Source: a virus. Taken from it: 21,188 nt of DNA. Below, piece by piece: positions 3,835 through 21,034 of the stretch. The stretch's first letter is position 1. The number at the start of each line of letters is the position of its first letter. The notes under the pieces were generated by a model. That model was not told the origin of the DNA and made no database searches. It saw only the letters and a program-made list of their open reading frames with translations. The position numbers were made by a program, and so were the translations under genes. The stretch spans positions 1 through 21,188 of IMG/VR virus record IMGVR_UViG_3300045950_000091; one strand, 5' to 3'.

Positions 3835-4167
3835 ATGTTCTCAGTCGGTATATTCAATTGGAACAAAACGGCGTTGATTAATTGGGAACAGTTATCACGG
3901 TTGGAATATGGACGGCTGGAGGAGCAGCCGGAATTTGGTTGGGTGGTGTGGGGAGTTTATGTCAGTGGCTTATCGGCAGCCCCTGCTAGGGAAATTCTCG
4001 TAAGAGGTCTAGCCTCGGAGGACGAAGCCAAGCAGAAATTAGAGGAGTTCGGACAAGTCATTAACCGGTCTATTAACATACAAGTCGTCTTGCCACCGCC
4101 GCCGCAACAACTGCGGCTTGACCCACATGCTATATTTCCTGAATTTTCGCCGGGAGGCCGGGGGTGA
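3835..4167 (+). CDS. Hypothetical protein (110 aa)
   Basis: I do not recognise this protein. It starts MFSVGIFNWNKTALINWEQL, continues with a beta-like segment GWVVWGVYVSGLS (35-47), a helix rich in Glu and Lys (SEDEAKQKLEEFGQVI, about 61-76), and a proline-rich tail (VLPPPPQQL). The compact strand-helix layout suggests a small soluble alpha/beta domain. GGAG at 3821-3824, ten bases before the ATG, supports the start. It lies 18 bases after the regulator and ends one base before the DUF2235 start, so it belongs to the same transcript. It has no signal peptide or membrane segment. Function unknown. Confidence 0.7.
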   Translation: MFSVGIFNWNKTALINWEQLSRLEYGRLEEQPEFGWVVWGVYVSGLSAAPAREILVRGLASEDEAKQKLEEFGQVINRSINIQVVLPPPPQQLRLDPHAIFPEFSPGGRG

Positions 4168-4168
4168 T

Positions 4169-4963
4169 ATGTTGGTTGCGTTTGATGGCACCTGGGCGAA
4201 GAACGAACCTGATGATGCTTTTGATACGAATGTAATAAAGTTTACAGAAGTATACGACCAGGATGAGCTTATCGCCTATTGGTCGGGCCCGGGCACGCGT
4301 GTAGGTTGGGTCGGGAAGATTCTTGGTGGAGGGTTTGGTGCCGGTGGCAAACAACGTATTAATGAAGCCATCCGACAGATAAAGAACAATCTTGGGGCAC
4401 GGCCACTTGACGTTGTTGGTTTCAGTCGGGGGGCGGCGATGGCGGTTGATTTGTGTAACCAGCTATCCAAGCTAAAAATAAAGATAAATGTTCGCTTCCT
4501 GGGCTTATTTGACATGGTGGGGTCTTTTGGTATACCGTGGAACCTCTGGAATATGGGTTATGATCTGAAGTTGCCGTTGAATGTGCATGTAGCGGCGCAT
4601 GCAATGGCCGCGCATGAAAAGCGGCTGGCGTTTAAGTTAGTGCGGTTGGAGTGGCATACTCAGGACCGTGGGCGTGCACAGTGGTCAAAGAATAAGATTA
4701 TTGAGTGTTGGTTTCGTGGAGTCCATAGTGACATTGGTGGCGGTAATGGTAATATAGCCTTGTCGTGTTTTCCTTTATATTGGATGTGCCAGCAGGCTAT
4801 GATAGCTGGGGTAAAACTAAAACTGGATGTGATGGAGCGGTGTCGGCCTAATCGGGATCATGCAGTAGCCCATATCTCTGAAACCGTCGGCTTGAAAACG
4901 GCACCAAGGTTGATTCTGGCAACAGATCATATTCATGAATCCGTCCAGTTGGATAAAGTATGA
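4169..4963 (+). CDS. DUF2235 (Tle1-like) alpha/beta hydrolase
   Basis: From ATG 4169 the protein has 264 aa. It opens with the family's LVAFDGTWAKNEPDD (usual form 'FDGTWN'). The nucleophile elbow G-F-S-R-G-A (84-89) gives Ser86; LGLFDMVGSFG (111-121) supplies Asp115; and RGVHSDIGGG (183-192) supplies His186. All three expected catalytic residues are present. DUF2235 is the catalytic domain of type VI secretion phospholipase effectors of the Tle1 group, so lipid or ester hydrolysis is likely. This copy is near minimal length and has no signal peptide. An in-frame TTG at 4118 would add 17 residues, but 4169 follows GGGGGTGAT and fits the family N-terminus. Lying between a regulator and terminase genes is unusual; lysis, envelope damage or host takeover are possible roles. 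Confidence 0.88.
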   Translation: MLVAFDGTWAKNEPDDAFDTNVIKFTEVYDQDELIAYWSGPGTRVGWVGKILGGGFGAGGKQRINEAIRQIKNNLGARPLDVVGFSRGAAMAVDLCNQLSKLKIKINVRFLGLFDMVGSFGIPWNLWNMGYDLKLPLNVHVAAHAMAAHEKRLAFKLVRLEWHTQDRGRAQWSKNKIIECWFRGVHSDIGGGNGNIALSCFPLYWMCQQAMIAGVKLKLDVMERCRPNRDHAVAHISETVGLKTAPRLILATDHIHESVQLDKV

Positions 4964-5640: not shown

Positions 5641-5704
5641 CTCGCCGATGCCATCCGAGCCGCCGAGCGTTAAGCCCGGTAGCTCCGGCTTGAAAAAAGT
5701 GTGA
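5492..5704 (+). CDS. Small membrane-type protein overlapping the small terminase gene
   Basis: This is a 70-aa product beginning MAWNWKKVTEGALLIG. Residues about 9-26 (EGALLIGTTVGAPLAAEY) and 31-47 (KWAIAAQTAAVLTAWL) form two modestly hydrophobic helices. The C-terminus is rich in Pro, Ser and Lys (MPSEPPSVKPGSSGLKKV). The layout resembles small phage membrane proteins, including two-helix holins, although no family can be assigned. The start is fixed by GGAGG nine bases upstream. It overlaps the preceding gene by 149 bases in the +1 frame and its stop overlaps the large terminase's GTG. Its sequence looks like the conserved partner, whereas the other frame is low complexity. Confidence 0.65.
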   Translation: MAWNWKKVTEGALLIGTTVGAPLAAEYLQQNPKWAIAAQTAAVLTAWLRNSPMPSEPPSVKPGSSGLKKV

Positions 5705-7320
5705 ACGGCATTTTTGATTTTGGTGTTGATAAAGCCGATAATCTCTACCTCACGGACTTTCTTGCCTTTCTGAAGACCTCTCCCGAACCCACGGACGACG
5801 ACATCTTTCAATACGTGCGTCGTGTGGCGGTAAGCGACACTTACTTTTTGGGTAAGTACATTCTGCAATACGACCGCTTGCGGTCGCATCTACATCGGGC
5901 CTTGTGTTCATGGGTGGATGAGCACGAACGTGATTACTTTTATTTCATCTATCCTGGACAGCACTATAAAACGACGGTTGGCAAGAGTTATCTTCTGCGC
6001 CGCATTATTAAGAATCCTAATATCCGGATTCTGCTGGGTTCGTCTTCGGAAGATAACTCCATGCGGATCATGCAGGAGATTCAGCAGCATTTCCAAAAGA
6101 ATCCACGTTTCCGCACGTTCTTCCCGGAGTTGATCCCAAAGTCTTTTGACTACAATTGGGGCAAAGAGCGCATGTTGGTGCCCAGGGACCGCATCTATAG
6201 CGAGATGACGATGGAGATATGCGGGATTGATACGAAGTTGACCTCGCGGCATTACGATCTAGTGTTTCTGACCGATATTATTGAGCAGCGCATGGCGGCA
6301 TCGGTGTCCTTGATGGAATACGCCAGGGAGTGGTTTGGACTCCTAAGACGTATTGTGGATCAAGAAGGCGGCCAGATCGCGGGTGAGAGTAATCGTTGGG
6401 CCGAAGACGACGTTGCAGGAGAGATTATCGCCACGGATTGTAAGCAGTACATTAACTTAAGCACGGGTGAGACCTTTGGTGATCCCAAAGGTAGGTTTTA
6501 TGTTCTGGAACGACAAGCCCGCGAGAAAGATAAGGACAACAACTGGAAGCCTATTCTACCGGAGGTCTATACCAATGAGTTTTATGACTTCATGGAGAAG
6601 AACTATCCAACGATCTATGATTGCCAGTACATGAATGAGCCGAAGATCAAAGAAGGTAAGTCACTGAAGAAAGACTGGCTACGTTACTGGCGTCCAGGGG
6701 ATGAGGGACCGTATTTTCTGGATGGTGAGTTTATTTGCCACTGGCATGAACTCGTGCATGATCAATTATGTGATCCCGCGCAATCCAAGCGCAAACAGGC
6801 TTCACGGGCGGCGATTATAGTAACGGCGATTGTGCCTAGACTTCGTTTGGTACTGGTACGTAAGGCTTGGGCCGGGCGAGTGGAACCCAGCGAATTAGTT
6901 TCTATGCTGTTGGATAACCAACTACGGTATCGGATACGTACGACGGCGATTGAGCAAGCTGGCAATCAGAGCTTATCTCATTGGACAGAGGTAATGTGTA
7001 AAGAAAAGAAACTGCGGATGAATGTTCAACAAGTAACTCCTTCCAATGTTCAGAAAGAGGTCCGTATCGTTAGTTATCTGGAGCCGTATTTCTCATCGGG
7101 GCGTATTTTGTTTGGGTCCGATATGGGCGATCTCGAAAGCGAGTATTTGAGTGTGTCATCTACCGAACGTAAGAGAAAGCAAGGCCGTAGTCTCGATCTT
7201 ATGGACGCTTTGGCCTATGGGCCGGAGATATGGGAGTTCCCGGCGGTGTACACTGGTAGTGACCTCTATGAAGAATACGTAGATCAAATTACTGGTAGGG
7301 ACCCGGTGACAGGATATTAA
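5701..7320 (+). CDS. terL: Terminase large subunit (packaging ATPase/nuclease)
   Basis: This 539-aa motor protein pumps DNA into the prohead and cuts it. The ATPase half has a variant Walker A, YPGQHYKTT (residues 84-92, Lys90), of the 'P-x-x-H-x-K-[ST]' kind common in podophage terminases, and a Walker B-like strand YDLVFLTDII (185-194, Asp192). GGQIAGES (223-230) may be the coupling motif. The nuclease half is RNase-H-like: CDPA (Asp358), IEQAGNQ (Glu418) and LMDALAYG (Asp502) supply acidic metal ligands. Length is normal. It starts with GTG inside the stop of the 70-aa gene (GTGA overlap), so coupled translation is likely. The next genes follow after a 50-base gap that holds a possible promoter. 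Confidence 0.93.
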   Translation: MNGIFDFGVDKADNLYLTDFLAFLKTSPEPTDDDIFQYVRRVAVSDTYFLGKYILQYDRLRSHLHRALCSWVDEHERDYFYFIYPGQHYKTTVGKSYLLRRIIKNPNIRILLGSSSEDNSMRIMQEIQQHFQKNPRFRTFFPELIPKSFDYNWGKERMLVPRDRIYSEMTMEICGIDTKLTSRHYDLVFLTDIIEQRMAASVSLMEYAREWFGLLRRIVDQEGGQIAGESNRWAEDDVAGEIIATDCKQYINLSTGETFGDPKGRFYVLERQAREKDKDNNWKPILPEVYTNEFYDFMEKNYPTIYDCQYMNEPKIKEGKSLKKDWLRYWRPGDEGPYFLDGEFICHWHELVHDQLCDPAQSKRKQASRAAIIVTAIVPRLRLVLVRKAWAGRVEPSELVSMLLDNQLRYRIRTTAIEQAGNQSLSHWTEVMCKEKKLRMNVQQVTPSNVQKEVRIVSYLEPYFSSGRILFGSDMGDLESEYLSVSSTERKRKQGRSLDLMDALAYGPEIWEFPAVYTGSDLYEEYVDQITGRDPVTGY

Positions 7321-7323
7321 TAG

Positions 7324-7352
7324 TTGACATCAGCAAGCTATTGTGGCATAGA
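7324..7352 (+). promoter_or_regulatory. Candidate internal promoter after the large terminase
   Basis: A perfect TTGACA (7324-7329) is followed after 17 bases by CATAGA (7347-7352). That -10 box is poor (three of six), but TGG immediately before it gives an extended -10 element. It sits in one of the few gaps of this operon, 20-50 bases ahead of the small basic gene cluster. Moderate to weak evidence. Confidence 0.35.
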
Positions 7353-7370
7353 TGGTTAGGGAATGAGATT

Positions 7371-7535
7371 ATGGCGGTAATCACTAGAGCGCAGTTCCCA
7401 AACCTAAGTAACAGAAGTTTCCTGTTGCTGAACCGCGTAGGCAAGGTGCGCTCGGTGCGTGGCCGGGCGCGCCTGCCTAAATTAACGGCGAAGCGCAGTC
7501 GGCGCTTACGCGTTAGGGTAGGGAGTGATGCCTAA
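7371..7535 (+). CDS. Small Arg-rich protein with a major-capsid-like N-terminus
   Basis: This is a 54-aa protein. Its first 12 residues, MAVITRAQFPNL, match the first 12 of the major capsid protein encoded at 12419 (MATITRAQFPNL) at 11 positions. The remainder is unlike capsid and strongly basic: 15 of 54 residues are Arg or Lys (for example SVRGRARLPKLTAKRSRRLR), which suggests nucleic-acid binding. The DNA of the shared stretch differs at 10 of 36 bases, mostly third positions, so the peptide has been kept by selection. A longer start at 7341 is possible, but 7371 aligns with the capsid start and follows a GGGAATGAG stretch. It overlaps the next gene by 8 bases. It may be a minor head or DNA-organising protein. 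Confidence 0.6.
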   Translation: MAVITRAQFPNLSNRSFLLLNRVGKVRSVRGRARLPKLTAKRSRRLRVRVGSDA

Positions 7536-7662
7536 ACGTCACATACGTAAACTCAACTTCTATATGCGTGGTAAGCCAGAGAAGAAGACCAGGGGTCTAC
7601 GTAGGGTCTCTGATCGAATAAGAAAAGTGAAATTACCTGAACGTGAGTACGAGTACTATTGA
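7528..7662 (+). CDS. Small basic protein (44 aa)
   Basis: The ORF starts at an ATG overlapping the previous stop, behind an AGGGAG ribosome site a few bases upstream. It begins MPKRHIRKLNFYMRGKPEKK, continues with RGLRRVSDRIRKVKL, and ends with acidic/aromatic EREYEYY. Sixteen of 44 residues are Lys or Arg. It probably binds nucleic acid or another virion component. I know no family. It is the second of four tiny basic genes in a row, all with good ribosome sites, between the large terminase and the portal. That shared context and the coupled start make a real gene likely. Confidence 0.6.
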   Translation: MPKRHIRKLNFYMRGKPEKKTRGLRRVSDRIRKVKLPEREYEYY

Positions 7663-7670
7663 GGTGCATT

Positions 7671-7730
7671 ATGGCAAAGCCGAAGAAGACCACGAAGAAA
7701 AAGAAAACCGGCAAGCTGTTCGGGTACTGA
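7671..7730 (+). CDS. Lys-rich 19-aa micropeptide
   Basis: A 19-codon ORF starts at 7671 after GAGGTG (7661-7666) and ends with TGA at 7728-7730. The peptide begins MAKPKKTTKKKKTGK and ends LFGY, with eight lysines. The ribosome site is well placed, and the ORF fits exactly between its neighbours (8-9-base gaps on both sides), which supports translation. It resembles protamine- or histone-tail-like peptides in composition only. It is too short for standard gene finders and would usually be missed. Confidence 0.5.
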   Translation: MAKPKKTTKKKKTGKLFGY

Positions 7731-7739
7731 GGTAGATGT

Positions 7740-7952
7740 ATGCCAACCGCTGGTAGTCGGGCCAAACGACAAGCTCGCAAAACCAAACTACGGGGGCCCA
7801 AAGAACGTAATAAAATGGCTACTGTGATGCGGGAGTTTCACCACGGTGCGTTGTATTCTTCCAGTGGTCAAAAAGTAACGGACCCGGCTCAAGCCGCGGC
7901 GATTGGTTACTCGGAAGTAAAGGCCAAGCGACAGCGGAAAAAGAAGGCATGA
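7740..7952 (+). CDS. Small basic phage protein, DUF6496-like
   Basis: This is a 70-aa protein with a basic N-terminus (GSRAKRQARKTKLRGPKERN), a central segment VMREFHHGALYSSSGQKVTD (29-48) and AAAIGYSEVKAK, ending KRQRKKKA. The central pattern 'V-M-x-E-F-x-x-G-x-L-x-S-x-x-G-x-K-V', followed by an A-I-x-S-E helix, is that of the DUF6496 family found in many phages and bacteria. Its function is unknown. Here it has extra basic flanks. GAGGT about nine bases upstream supports the start. It is the fourth in the cluster of tiny basic genes. Confidence 0.75.
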   Translation: MPTAGSRAKRQARKTKLRGPKERNKMATVMREFHHGALYSSSGQKVTDPAQAAAIGYSEVKAKRQRKKKA

Positions 7953-7958
7953 TGTGGA

Positions 7959-8204
7959 GTGGCAGAGAAAAAAGAACCCTTACCTTGGATAATGATTATA
8001 CAAACGCTGATTTCTGTAGTAACCATTGTCGGCGCATTCCTTGTGGGGTGGATGAATCTGCGGGATTCCGTTACCATCCTAAAGGTGGAACAGAGTAACT
8101 TGACGGATCGGATTAAGGAAATGAAGGCGGAGATTGATAGGTTGCAAACCGAACTCCGTCGGGTAGAGATGGAGCGAGAGCAGTTGCGGCGCGATGGGAG
8201 ATAG
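7959..8204 (+). CDS. Small inner-membrane protein with coiled coil
   Basis: This is an 81-aa protein with GTG start. Residues 8-31 (LPWIMIIQTLISVVTIVGAF) form one transmembrane helix after a short charged N-terminus. Residues 36-79 form a heptad-like coiled coil (DRIKEMKAEIDRLQTELRRV). One membrane helix followed by a charged coiled coil is also the layout of inner-membrane spanins and some small holin-associated proteins. No endolysin is nearby, so lysis is only one option. GAAGG 11 bases upstream supports the GTG. It is paired with the next gene, which has the same architecture. Confidence 0.7.
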   Translation: MAEKKEPLPWIMIIQTLISVVTIVGAFLVGWMNLRDSVTILKVEQSNLTDRIKEMKAEIDRLQTELRRVEMEREQLRRDGR

Positions 8205-8209
8205 CAGAA

Positions 8210-8482
8210 GTGAGCCGTTATGGGCCGATAGTAGTTCAGTCTCTAATTAACTGCGTTCTCACTATTGTCGCCTGTTGGTACTTGACTCAATATATCAGGG
8301 AGTCATTTGTCGTAATTCAGGATACGATTGGTGTGTTTTCGGAAAGTGTTATTGAGTTCAAAAAGGTCAATGCGCTATATTACGGTTTAATTACCGAGCA
8401 ACGGCAAATGCTCGTTGAAAACAACCGTTTGATTAAAGAAACTAAGGCGCAGATTAAAGCAGACTACAAAGCACAACGTTAA
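8210..8482 (+). CDS. Small inner-membrane protein, partner of the previous gene
   Basis: This is a 90-aa protein with GTG start, GGGAG about 9-12 bases upstream. Residues 6-28 (PIVVQSLINCVLTIVACWYL) are a transmembrane helix. Residues 40-88 are charged and helical (IEFKKVNALYYGLI, then NNRLIKETKAQIKADYKAQR). It is separated by five bases from the preceding membrane protein and its TAA overlaps the portal ATG, so the three genes are coupled. The two membrane proteins share layout but little sequence, so they may form a hetero-complex. Lysis, prohead docking at the membrane, or DNA ejection are possible roles. Confidence 0.7.
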   Translation: MSRYGPIVVQSLINCVLTIVACWYLTQYIRESFVVIQDTIGVFSESVIEFKKVNALYYGLITEQRQMLVENNRLIKETKAQIKADYKAQR

Positions 8483-10434
8483 TGCCACCCAATGACTTAC
8501 CAATTGATGCCGAAGTGGAACGCCTGGGCCAATGGCTCCAGGATCAGATTACACGTGCCAGGGGTCATCGTGAGGATGAGGAGCGCAAATGGAAACAGTT
8601 TGACCGTTATTATGAGTCCAAGCCGGATGTTGATAAGAAAGACTTCCCGTGGCCCGATGCGTCAAATGTATTCATTCCGATAACCCGCATTCACTCTGAT
8701 CTGATATTCTCTCGTATCTTAGCCTCGCTCTGGACGCAACAAGACGTGTGGATCGTCAAGTCGTACAACAAGCGCTACAAGGACTATGTTAGTGGTATTC
8801 AGCGTTTGTTGAACTGGACGGCGAAAGAGCGCATGCAAGCCAATAAGACCAGCAAACCCGCGGTCAAGCAGATCGTTAAACGTGGAACGAGTATATTCAA
8901 GCTCTATTGGAGACGGCTGGTAAAACCGGTGTTTATGGTAGATGATGCCGGGGAACTGCAAAAAGACACACAGTTGTTTTATGACGCTCCGGCATTGGAT
9001 TGGGTGCGGGTGGAGGACTTTCTTATTCCTGATCCTAACCTTACCAAGCGCGATCAGCACATATGGCAGGCGGAGGAGATACGGCTAACTTGGACACAGC
9101 TTAATGAATTGGCGTTTAATGGCTTCTTTGATAGTAACCGCTTGGAAGAGTTCAAGCCGTATCTTACTACTCATTGGAACCAATACCAGTCCAGTACTGA
9201 GGAGCTACACGGCATCAATCGTGTGGAAAATGCTATTATCCCTATTTACGAAACCTATGCCTGGTTGGATATAAATAACGACAATCTAGCGGAACCGGTA
9301 ATTATCTGGGTAGAGCGCTACAGCGGTAAAGTGCTGAAAATGGCCTACAACGATGATCCCTTGGGGCGCTCACCGTATCTTCCTATTCAGTTCATGCCGA
9401 GAGAGGATTGGTTTTATGGCATTGGGGTGCCGGAGATGTTGGAACACCTCAATCGTGAAATCAATACCATGCATAACCAGCGCAGAGATAACGCCACGAT
9501 TGCCAATATACGCCAACCCATAGTGCGGACGGGATCGGATTGCACGCTTAAGCCCGGTGTAAGGATGTTTCCTGGATTGCCGATCTTTACCGAAGACCCT
9601 GCTAGGGATTTGAGTTTGTTGCAGTTGGGTGATGTGTACCCATCGGCGAGTTCAGATGAGATATTGGATTTGCAATATTGCGAACGTACCACTGGCGTTA
9701 CGGACCCGATGGTGGGGCGTTTAGGAAGTGGTATGGGCACTCGTACCCCGGCGGCATTGGGTATATCGTTGATGCAGCAATCCGCATCCCGTATGCAGAT
9801 CGGTATAGACGACATCCGTGAAACGTTTGAAGAGATCGGCTATCGCACGTTGGAACTCTACGGCCGTTACAAAGACTCTGCGGAGGGCATTATCGGTAAG
9901 TTGTTCGACGGCGAGCCGGAGACCATTAATAAAGTCATGGAAGTATTGTCACTCCCGGTGACAGAACTCCGTGAGCATTTTGTAATGGATATGTCGGTGG
10001 TGTCGCAGACGATCAACCGTGAAGTTGCTCAGCAGATGCATCAAGCCAAGATTCAGATGAAGATGAATATAGGTCAGCAGATGATGCAGTTGGGGCAAAT
10101 GCTAATCAATCCGCAAATGCCACCGGAGTTCAAAAAGCCTCTGGGGGATTTGGCGATTAAGCTCGTTAAGGACCTCGATAAGGACCTTGTGCGTTGGCAG
10201 GAGTTGTTTGACGAACGTGACCCGACGCAATATGCGCCGATGTTAGAGGAGGTGCAGCAATATGGCATGGGTGGAGGAGGACTACCTGGATCAGTTCCGC
10301 CAGGTGATAGCGAGGCCGGAATTGCTGGAGCGCTACCTGAGCCGGGTTTTGGCGGTAATGGTCTCGCTGGTCCGCAGCCGGGTGTGGGAGGCGGCGGACT
10401 ACCCGGATTACAGGGGCCTCCAGCAAGAGTTTAA
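8482..10434 (+). CDS. Portal protein (head-to-tail connector)
   Basis: This is a 650-aa protein of the podophage/P22-type portal class, the dodecameric ring through which DNA is packaged and ejected. Typical features include FPWPDASNVFIPITRIHSD (about 55-73), IVKRGTSIFKLYW, DWVRVEDFLIPDPNL, the middle strand WFYGIGVPEMLEHLNREIN (310-328) followed by NQRRDNATIAN, and GVTDPMVGRLGSGMGTRTP (410-428), which precedes the helical crown region (QMHQAKIQMKMNIGQQMMQ). From residue about 593 the C-terminus is Gly/Pro-rich. That stretch is entirely overlapped by the next gene in the +1 frame, so it is probably an overprinted extension. The start overlaps the upstream stop (TAATG). Confidence 0.9.
   Translation: MPPNDLPIDAEVERLGQWLQDQITRARGHREDEERKWKQFDRYYESKPDVDKKDFPWPDASNVFIPITRIHSDLIFSRILASLWTQQDVWIVKSYNKRYKDYVSGIQRLLNWTAKERMQANKTSKPAVKQIVKRGTSIFKLYWRRLVKPVFMVDDAGELQKDTQLFYDAPALDWVRVEDFLIPDPNLTKRDQHIWQAEEIRLTWTQLNELAFNGFFDSNRLEEFKPYLTTHWNQYQSSTEELHGINRVENAIIPIYETYAWLDINNDNLAEPVIIWVERYSGKVLKMAYNDDPLGRSPYLPIQFMPREDWFYGIGVPEMLEHLNREINTMHNQRRDNATIANIRQPIVRTGSDCTLKPGVRMFPGLPIFTEDPARDLSLLQLGDVYPSASSDEILDLQYCERTTGVTDPMVGRLGSGMGTRTPAALGISLMQQSASRMQIGIDDIRETFEEIGYRTLELYGRYKDSAEGIIGKLFDGEPETINKVMEVLSLPVTELREHFVMDMSVVSQTINREVAQQMHQAKIQMKMNIGQQMMQLGQMLINPQMPPEFKKPLGDLAIKLVKDLDKDLVRWQELFDERDPTQYAPMLEEVQQYGMGGGGLPGSVPPGDSEAGIAGALPEPGFGGNGLAGPQPGVGGGGLPGLQGPPARV
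10246..10254 (+). promoter_or_regulatory. Strong ribosome-binding site inside the portal gene
   Basis: GAGGAGGTG at 10246-10254 is a near-perfect Shine-Dalgarno sequence placed seven bases before ATG 10262. It lies within the portal coding sequence and directs translation of the overlapping 87-aa gene. Confidence 0.75.
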
Positions 10435-12418: not shown

Positions 12419-13390
12419 ATGGCTACAATTACCAGAGCACAGTTTCCTAATCTTGTCATGGCGGCGAAATCCATCCGCAAGATATTTCTCGATGAGATGG
12501 GCGACCATCAGTATATCTTTGAGAAGTTCTACAATGTGGAAACTGCGGATGGCAGCTATACTACGGACTACAGTGCGGCGGGTTTTACCTTACCGGTGAA
12601 GAGAAACGACAATGATCCGGTGACGTATGATACTCCCCAAGCTGTCGGCGAGGTCCGTTACAACTACGCGGAGTTCGCCTTGGGCTTTCGTACCGCGAAG
12701 AACATGATTCGTGATGAGAAACATGGCTTCATTGCGAAGTTGTCAAAGAACCTTGCTAAGGTCATGAAGTACCGGGCCGAGGTAGAGGCGGCGGCAGTTT
12801 TTAATAACGCTTTTGCCGCCTTTGGTGCCGGACATTGGGGCACGGTGACGATTGGCTCTGGTTCTACTACGGTTCCACTCAGTTACATTGCGGCGGGGGT
12901 AACATTTGATGGGTTGTCGATATTCAACACGGCTCACGTGGTAAAACGCGGTACGACGTACAGCAACACCGGCGCGATTGATCTGGGGTATACTGGATTT
13001 GCGGCGATGAATACCTCTTTTCGCAAGACTCCGACGGAAGGTAATCTCATCATGCCCGGGGAGATTGCTTATTTGATTGTGCCAGTGGAGTTGGAACTAC
13101 GTGGAGAAGAGTTGTTAAACAGTAGCTATAAGCCGTTTACCGCGAATAATGAGGAAAACATTATAAAGAAACGCGGAATTGGATTGTGCCCGTGGCCGCA
13201 ATTAACCAGTGCCACACGTTGGTTTGGTTTGGGTCAGAAGGGTTATCACGCGTTTAACTGGTTCTGGCGACAAGGGATTGAGTTTGACCAAGAGACCGAG
13301 TTCCAGACAAAGAGTGTGTTGAGTGACGCTAATATGAGGTTGGCTTGTGGAGCCTCCGACTGGCGTTACAGTTACGGCGGAAATCCATAG
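12419..13390 (+). CDS. Major capsid protein (HK97-type fold expected)
   Basis: This 323-aa protein forms the icosahedral shell. Its N-terminal helix, AAKSIRKIFLDEMGDHQYIF, and VRYNYAEFALGFRTAKNMIR (83-102) match the usual order of Mu gpT-related and podophage capsid proteins. The segment DGLSIFNTAHVVKRG (about 162-176) corresponds to the family's 'D-G-x-x-[LI]-F-x-x-x-H' motif. YLIVPVELELRGEELLNS follows in the P-domain. TRWFGLGQKGYHAFNWFW and the ending GASDWRYSYGG fit the last strands. The first 12 residues (MATITRAQFPNL) recur at the start of the small protein encoded at 7371. GAGGTAG about 6 bases upstream gives a strong start. Confidence 0.88.
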   Translation: MATITRAQFPNLVMAAKSIRKIFLDEMGDHQYIFEKFYNVETADGSYTTDYSAAGFTLPVKRNDNDPVTYDTPQAVGEVRYNYAEFALGFRTAKNMIRDEKHGFIAKLSKNLAKVMKYRAEVEAAAVFNNAFAAFGAGHWGTVTIGSGSTTVPLSYIAAGVTFDGLSIFNTAHVVKRGTTYSNTGAIDLGYTGFAAMNTSFRKTPTEGNLIMPGEIAYLIVPVELELRGEELLNSSYKPFTANNEENIIKKRGIGLCPWPQLTSATRWFGLGQKGYHAFNWFWRQGIEFDQETEFQTKSVLSDANMRLACGASDWRYSYGGNP

Positions 13391-20042: not shown

Positions 20043-20597
20043 ATGCCTCCAATTTCAACGCAGTTGTTGGCTCCACCGTATGGGCTGAAATTAGACCGTA
20101 TTCAGATTGCGGACTGGAAAGAACTGGTTCATTCGATCTATTCGCAGCGCGATGACTTGACAAAGTTGAAAGATTGGGCGGATTTGACCATTCAACAACT
20201 TAACGACAAGTTTCTGGCTTTCATGGACTACTACAATCTGCTGTCATCCATGTTGATCCCGGACTATAGCAATAATCTTGACGCCGTGTTAAACAATATT
20301 ACGAATGCCAAATCAGTATCCAGTCGATTTCTGGATGTGAAAAACGCCGGGAAAAGCGCGGCGCAAAGCGCGGCGACCGCGACCGATGTGGATTTAGCGG
20401 TGACGTTTACGTATCCAATGACCGCCGCGCCGACGAATATTTTATTAGGGATTCAGGAGCTAAGTGATCCCGTGGCTCAGATTGTTTCCGTTTCGGCGAA
20501 TAACCCCACCAACACGGGTTTTACGGCTCATTGCAAGGTTATTGTCGCCGTAGGCGGTGCTACCTTTAGATTCTCCTGGATACCATTGGGTCTATGA
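20043..20597 (+). CDS. Putative tail fibre tip or spike protein (184 aa)
   Basis: Residues 1-80 are helical (IQIADWKELVHSIYSQRDDL, LTIQQLNDKFLAFMDYYNLL) and could trimerise; residues 110-184 form a beta sandwich (DVDLAVTFTYPMTAAPTNIL, GFTAHCKVIVAVGG, FRFSWIPLGL). A helical stalk plus C-terminal beta sandwich is typical of small receptor-binding proteins at a tail end. The C-terminal domain looks a little like H-type lectin domains, but this is a guess. It begins one base after the 713-aa gene and overlaps the co-chaperonin ATG by four bases (ATGA). The first residues (MPPISTQLLAPPYGL) have no signal character. Confidence 0.65.
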   Translation: MPPISTQLLAPPYGLKLDRIQIADWKELVHSIYSQRDDLTKLKDWADLTIQQLNDKFLAFMDYYNLLSSMLIPDYSNNLDAVLNNITNAKSVSSRFLDVKNAGKSAAQSAATATDVDLAVTFTYPMTAAPTNILLGIQELSDPVAQIVSVSANNPTNTGFTAHCKVIVAVGGATFRFSWIPLGL

Positions 20598-21034
20598 AAA
20601 CGCTAACCTATAACTGCTCGGAATGCGATGAAGTCCACAAACTCTACGAGTCCTGTAACAGCTACGTGGCTAAGTTCATTGACTGGTTGGACGATGCTTG
20701 GCTGGAGCCGTTGCCGTATAAGCTGGTTATACTTCCCGATCCAGAGAAGGGCAAGGTCGGTGGCATCATTCATCTGCCGGACAAGTACCAGGACATACCT
20801 TCGATGGGGACCGTTATTGCGTGTGGAGAGAATGTCAAACAAGTTAAAGTCGGTGATCGGGTGCTCTATGGCAAATACGCCGGTATTGGTTACGAGACCG
20901 GCAGCTTGTTCTCGCTCAAGCTCATTAAAGAAGACGAGATTATATGCCTGTTAGTGCCGCAAGTGAACTACGAGAAGAGATTGATGCTCGAAACGGTCAT
21001 CAAGAAAAGGTTACCATCATTGATGGCGTCGTAG
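20594..21034 (+). CDS. GroES-like co-chaperonin with Cys-rich N-terminal extension
   Basis: This is a 146-aa protein. Residues 38-120 follow the Cpn10 pattern: LEPLPYKLVILPDPEKGKVG, GGIIHLPDK (the mobile loop that binds GroEL), GTVIACGENVKQVKVGDRVL, YGKYAGIGYE and the closing strand EDEIICLL. Phage co-chaperonins such as T4 gp31 replace or assist host GroES in folding capsid protein; no GroEL partner is in the window. The first 37 residues are extra and hold C8-x2-C11-x3-H15-x5-C21, which could bind zinc. Residues 121-146 lie past the normal Cpn10 end, and that stretch overlaps the next gene. The start overlaps the previous stop (ATGA). Confidence 0.85.
   Translation: MKTLTYNCSECDEVHKLYESCNSYVAKFIDWLDDAWLEPLPYKLVILPDPEKGKVGGIIHLPDKYQDIPSMGTVIACGENVKQVKVGDRVLYGKYAGIGYETGSLFSLKLIKEDEIICLLVPQVNYEKRLMLETVIKKRLPSLMAS

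Follow-up and report, generated by a model that had tools for sequence, protein, structure and literature searches.

A tiny basic phage protein that shares its N-terminal peptide with a Mu gpT-like major capsid protein: a candidate docking tag

The internal proteins of phage T4 (IPI-III) are small and basic, are believed to enter the head by means of a short conserved N-terminal sequence and to contact DNA through their lysines (PMC3012670). In the gpT-type capsid of phage JBD30, the N-arm of the major capsid protein (MCP) is helical in the procapsid (residues 6-25) and forms a hook over the neighbouring capsomer, and the tip of the arm (residues 2-14) turns back and refolds at the portal (PMC11445458). 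The scaffold contacts an N-arm helix in the proheads of other phages, where SaPI1 CpmB, a satellite capsid size redirection protein, apparently competes with the scaffold of phage 80alpha (PMC12749128).

The window, that is the whole stretch of DNA analysed here, is a 21,188-base IMG/VR virus record. It encodes a tiny and extremely basic protein (pI 12.0, with 15 Lys and Arg residues and a single Asp or Glu) whose start is nearly that of the MCP of the same record (Table 1). The MCP start (MATITRAQFPNLVMAAKS) and the start of the tiny protein are identical at 11 of 12 residues, MA[V/T]ITRAQFPNL, and similarity is not evident past residue 12 or 5' of the two start codons, which bears out an earlier note that the two proteins share their start and are otherwise dissimilar. 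That note also had 10 of the 36 bases differing, mostly silently, and the count holds: there are 8 silent one-base codon changes, and the other 2 bases lie in one replaced codon (GTA Val, ACA Thr). Its further claim, that the peptide is under selection, is supported at the protein level by the predominance of silent changes, and the recurrence of such a peptide in other phages shows that the case is not a one-off.

Table 1. Features of the window, with positions counted from its first base.
Feature	Position	Strand	Sequence	Remarks
Terminase large subunit gene (terL), upstream neighbour	5701..7320	+		tblastn matches to annotated terminases
Ribosome-binding-like AGGGA	7358..7362	+		8 bases 5' of the ATG; read from the sequence
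Tiny basic protein gene	7371..7535	+	MAVITRAQFPNLSNRSFLLLNRVGKVRSVRGRARLPKLTAKRSRRLRVRVGSDA	54 aa, ATG start; N-arm-tip copy, then Arg-rich tail
Coding stretch of the shared 12-residue peptide	7371..7406	+	MAVITRAQFPNL	26 of 36 bases as in the MCP start; 8 silent codon changes, 1 replaced codon
Basic tail	7407..7532	+	SNRSFLLLNRVGKVRSVRGRARLPKLTAKRSRRLRVRVGSDA	without similarity to MCP; 33% Lys + Arg
Second Lys-rich mini-ORF	7671..7730	+	MAKPKKTTKKKKTGKLFGY	19 aa; 300 bases after the tiny gene start
Portal protein gene, downstream landmark	8482..10434	+		Pfam SU10_portal, 3e-14
MCP gene (Mu gpT-like, HK97 fold)	12419..13390	+		323 aa; PHROG, profile and Foldseek matches
Coding stretch of the MCP N-arm tip	12419..12454	+	MATITRAQFPNL	aligned to family N-termini; residues 1-13 disordered in the model

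The match between the two peptides scores 50 over residues 2-12, against 21 for the next best of the 1207 candidate ORF starts in the window, and in 1000 shuffles of the MCP peptide the best score over the same starts reached a maximum of 31 and never 50. A chance match is ruled out by this shuffle test and by the interval test in relatives described below. Exact-pattern scans of 2.9 million viral contigs in IMG/VR likewise rule out a peptide common among phage proteins: ITRAQFPN had one other match, within a 1174-aa ORF that is unrelated and has a Ser codon in place of Arg, and MAxxTRxQFPxL had none. Reading the sequence also rules out a decayed duplicate of the MCP, as MCP-like residues follow the peptide in no frame. 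As a possible third carrier of the peptide, the 176-aa protein encoded before the MCP (MATIQIASFGRLLTG) scores 21 against a shuffle median of 16.

The tiny gene overlaps the next ORF (ATG at 7528) by 8 bases, a pattern of translated operons. An in-frame TTG at 7341 would give an alternative 64-aa form; the ATG is preferred. Single-sequence AlphaFold2 prediction of the tiny protein alone returned a poor and uninformative model (pLDDT 57).

The MCP of the window is Mu gpT-like with an HK97 fold. It matches PHROG 371 (phrog_371, major head protein), its match to Pfam Phage_capsid_4 lies below the family cut-off, and a profile that combines it with six distant relatives has matches to solved capsids of the gpT type, 8rkc among them. 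Its AlphaFold2 model (mean pLDDT 75) has a Foldseek match to HK97-fold capsids, with pLDDT below 50 at residues 1-13 and a helix at residues 10-29. From the alignment of the MCP profile with a gpT-type capsid, we infer that the shared peptide corresponds to the N-arm tip of JBD30-type capsids. MCPs with no more than 25-29% overall identity to that of the window also have the motif T-R-x-x-F-x-x-L at their N-terminus.

Other small genes lie near the tiny gene. Lys-rich mini-ORFs similar to the second mini-ORF of Table 1 follow the tiny gene directly in other contigs (L084, L056 and L088), namely MAKGKGKGCGKGGKRY (G038), MAKGKGKGGCGKGGKRY (L056) and MACNSSKMGNRKTERLPPKGGKKY (G041), and this second mini-ORF may represent another conserved mini-protein. 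Two more small basic ORFs lie between terL and portal in the window, one of 44 aa (7528-7662, +) and one of 70 aa (7740-7952, +), the latter with a weak match to DUF6496. Between these basic genes and the portal gene are short proteins at 7959-8204 and 8210-8482 (+), the first with weak matches to PHROG 739 (Rz-like spanin) and PHROG 3671; the two are possible lysis genes in the head module. Upstream of terL, the ORF at 4118-4963 (+) carries a T6SS Tle1-like phospholipase catalytic domain (PF09994, E = 5e-34), which is unusual in a phage head region, and a GroES/Cpn10 gene (PF00166) at 20594-21034 (+) lies far downstream here and just before the capsid genes in many relatives.

Queries with the MCP and the tiny protein in IMG/VR, and with the MCP in GTDB contigs, returned no close relatives of the window. 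Distant relatives of the MCP came from tblastn in INPHARED and from scans of IMG/VR with two degenerate patterns. One pattern, on an internal MCP motif, gave contigs G017, G020, G022, G024, G026, G027 and G030, and the other, on the MCP N-terminus, added G035, G038, G040, G041 and L056. L056, a short contig without an MCP, came to light by way of its tiny gene and is not independent evidence. When 38 genomes and contigs were screened for ORFs starting like their own MCP, the best matches after that of the window were three tiny basic ORFs with p = 0.003-0.005 each (G041, MQTRGTYPEITVPRPKPRPKPKRGK; G027, MTQTSGTFPALSDGRKKPSKPKKGKR; and gp50 of HTVC023P, MAITRGQISKQVEGKLRGARDEKKKKKRVEIAIKRKKNPLSRTFTA), and a fourth in G040 (MSQTTGVFPALTDGVRKSPRPPRRPRPTKKG) had p = 0.014; these values are per genome, uncorrected for the 38 genomes, and taken alone are suggestive only. 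In the same screen no tiny gene rose above chance in G002, DSL-LC04, CRP-902, 023Pt, Pag-Yong1 or HTVC027P; the match in Pag-Yong1 (p = 0.019) lies far from the head genes and its tail is not basic in the same way. The start of the 339-aa HTVC027P_gp82 (L080 39165), MAISRMQQPRQQYGLG, recalls the MCP start of the same phage, MAISRGQLVKEL, at a level not above chance (p = 0.445). Searched by tblastn in INPHARED, the tiny proteins had no match except that of HTVC023P gp50 to itself, and INPHARED contained no tiny gene like that of G035 and no portal like that of G038 at the limits used. One MAG has a QTRGTF MCP, and the genomes of its phylum yielded no further contig with the tiny gene.

The position of the gene is also conserved. 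Nine of the 11 related MCP-bearing contigs with a terL-portal interval, which was defined without reference to the MCP, carry a tiny gene there, those of G027, G040 and G041 on the same strand as the MCP; L056 carries one as well, giving ten other contigs in all, and none was found in the intervals of G030 and G017, which also have an MCP. Combined over the 11 contigs without the window, the interval test gave p of about 7e-13, a value that overstates independence as the contigs are related; alone, G038 (0.07), G020 (0.14) and G024 (0.31) were not significant. The interval search added members that start a few residues upstream of the peptide, in G022 (MTHTRHVQTGGQFPQLQIPKPPRKGGKHGKKGC), G024, G026 and G035. 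HTVC023P gp50 does not lie between terL and portal and is only a candidate member. Across 1.03 Mb, a search for the motif followed by a basic tail gave 14 matches, 11 of them terL-portal genes, against 2 in reversed and 0-5 in shuffled sequence. Pfam finds a terminase and SU10_portal in the sampled contigs, with two different terminase types.

The tiny proteins of the other contigs are 22-33 aa long with pI 10-12, and consist of an N-terminal QTxGTFPxL followed by a Lys/Arg tail; all members are very basic (pI 10.3-12.0). Their peptide resembles the QTRGTFxEL at the N-terminus of their own MCPs, and between the tiny genes of G038 and G020 the codons of the peptide show 3 silent changes and no replacement. 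Pfam and PHROG profiles gave no meaningful match to ten members, the only one at any level being phrog_30176 (unknown function, E = 0.09) to one of them. Three tiny proteins end in a cysteine, in G026 (KKKC), G022 (KKGC) and G024 (GKKC) (L071 2781, L035 1596 and L069 42). We propose that the gene of the window is a member of an undescribed family of 22-54 aa proteins, each a putative copy of the MCP N-arm tip with a Lys/Arg-rich tail, whose genes lie between those for terminase and portal in phages that have gpT-like MCPs.

The N-terminus of the tiny protein may in part follow that of the MCP in the same genome. Own pairs of tiny protein and MCP score above permuted pairings over 11 pairs (p = 8e-5) and within the related clade (p = 0.009), in a test that ignores relatedness. 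On the MCP tree a long branch separates the window from the other carriers, which form a well-supported clade; the two peptides therefore differ together across this split, with ITRAQFPNL in both proteins of the window and QTxGTFPxL and QTRGTFxEL in the tiny protein and MCP of the other clade. In G022 a Gln stands in place of the usual Thr in the MCP (RGQFPEL) and likewise in the tiny protein (GGQFPQL). The tracking is not strict, however, because the MCPs of G024 and G026 have changed (TAAEF and TVAEF) and their tiny proteins keep TFP (TFPAI and TFPEL). The expectation of the earlier note that the N-terminus of the small gene would track that of the capsid in each genome is thus partly supported, by the recurrence in ten contigs and by the joint difference across the deep split, but it fails in these two.

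The reading we favour, at a little short of an even chance, is that the copied N-arm tip serves the tiny protein as a docking tag, by which a DNA-binding tail is brought into the prohead or to the portal vertex. We infer a docking site, a presence in proheads and DNA binding as follows: during head assembly the N-terminal peptide would dock at the site of the MCP's own N-arm tip, for which a neighbouring subunit, the scaffold or unpaired sites beside the portal are candidates. This would leave the basic tail in the head interior or at the portal, in a position to bind DNA. JBD30 speaks for this reading in that the equivalent MCP residues hook onto the adjoining capsomer and change their fold at the portal, and so does the contact of the scaffold with an N-arm helix in proheads of other phages (PMC12749128). 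The missing gene in G030 and G017, the tiny peptides of G024 and G026 that do not follow their MCPs, and the interval tests that are not significant alone count against it. A fuller version, which we hold more loosely, is that phages carry a free copy of the N-arm tip that is fused to a DNA-binding tail and co-evolves with the MCP. By taking up N-arm sites, perhaps those left unpaired around the portal, it would tether packaged DNA to the shell, and cargo loading or completion of the portal vertex would proceed by self-mimicry.

Alternatively, the tiny protein may be an assembly regulator or gap filler. Its peptide would compete with the MCP N-arm or take its place at defined sites, chiefly around the portal, where the hexamers have no partner for the N-arm, and would control nucleation or capsid size in this way, with the tail of secondary importance. 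The tiny gene always lies directly before the portal region, the JBD30 MCP N-terminus changes conformation at the portal (PMC11445458), and the apparent competition of CpmB with the 80alpha scaffold at the N-arm helix offers a precedent (PMC12749128); however, CpmB is a different kind of protein, likened by its action only, and this alternative leaves the Lys/Arg tail of every member unexplained, such that we consider it unlikely. Somewhat less probable again is a shared client tag, with one third party (a phage GroES with host GroEL, a protease or a host factor) recognising both N-termini and the tiny protein acting as co-client or decoy. While the window encodes Cpn10/GroES and many relatives have GroES beside their capsid genes, the GroES carriers DSL-LC04, CRP-902 and Pag-Yong1 are without a tiny gene above chance, and the conserved place adjoins terL and portal rather than GroES.

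The tiny ORF could also lack a protein function, being either an inherited start-of-gene module or an ORF that serves only to couple translation from terL to the downstream genes. In several contigs it does overlap or adjoin a neighbour, either terL or the ORF that follows, but the DNA of the peptide has changed mostly at silent sites with the residues kept, the distance from tiny gene to portal gene varies from about 40 to 1600 bases, and the basic tail is kept in every member, all of which make this improbable. Host defence systems that sense capsid protein exist, and a soluble copy of the MCP N-terminus might titrate one of them, but head-module position, basic tail and deep conservation are more in keeping with a structural role and we know of no sensor of an MCP N-arm, so a host-defence decoy is very improbable.

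The docking reading suggests a way, so far unrecognised, of attaching a DNA-binding peptide to a capsid under assembly. Gene callers easily overlook genes of 22-33 codons, yet in uncultured phages this one turns up repeatedly at the same position within the head module. Should docking on the capsid hold true, the peptide would offer a compact natural tag with which to load basic peptides into gpT-type heads, and it would point to the MCP N-arm tip as a site of recognition during assembly.

A literature search of open-licence papers, mostly by titles and abstracts, found no description of such a protein. SaPI1 CpmB is alike in its small size and in its presumed action on the N-arm of an MCP with the HK97 fold, but it is satellite-encoded and competes with scaffold, and copying of the MCP N-terminus is not reported for it (PMC12749128). 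The N-arm hook of the Mu gpT-like MCP of JBD30 would be what corresponds structurally, within the MCP, to the shared peptide; the portions of that study drawn on here make no mention of a free copy of the hook. The likeness to T4 IPI-III, made without a claim of homology, lies in small basic proteins with a short conserved N-terminal peptide; the T4 tag, in contrast, is common to the internal proteins, which it targets to the scaffolding core, while here the putative tag is a copy of the MCP's own N-terminus and its carrier is only 22-54 aa long. A targeting peptide for head cargo is known, and what appears to be new is a free mini-protein that would take its tag from the N-terminus of the MCP itself.
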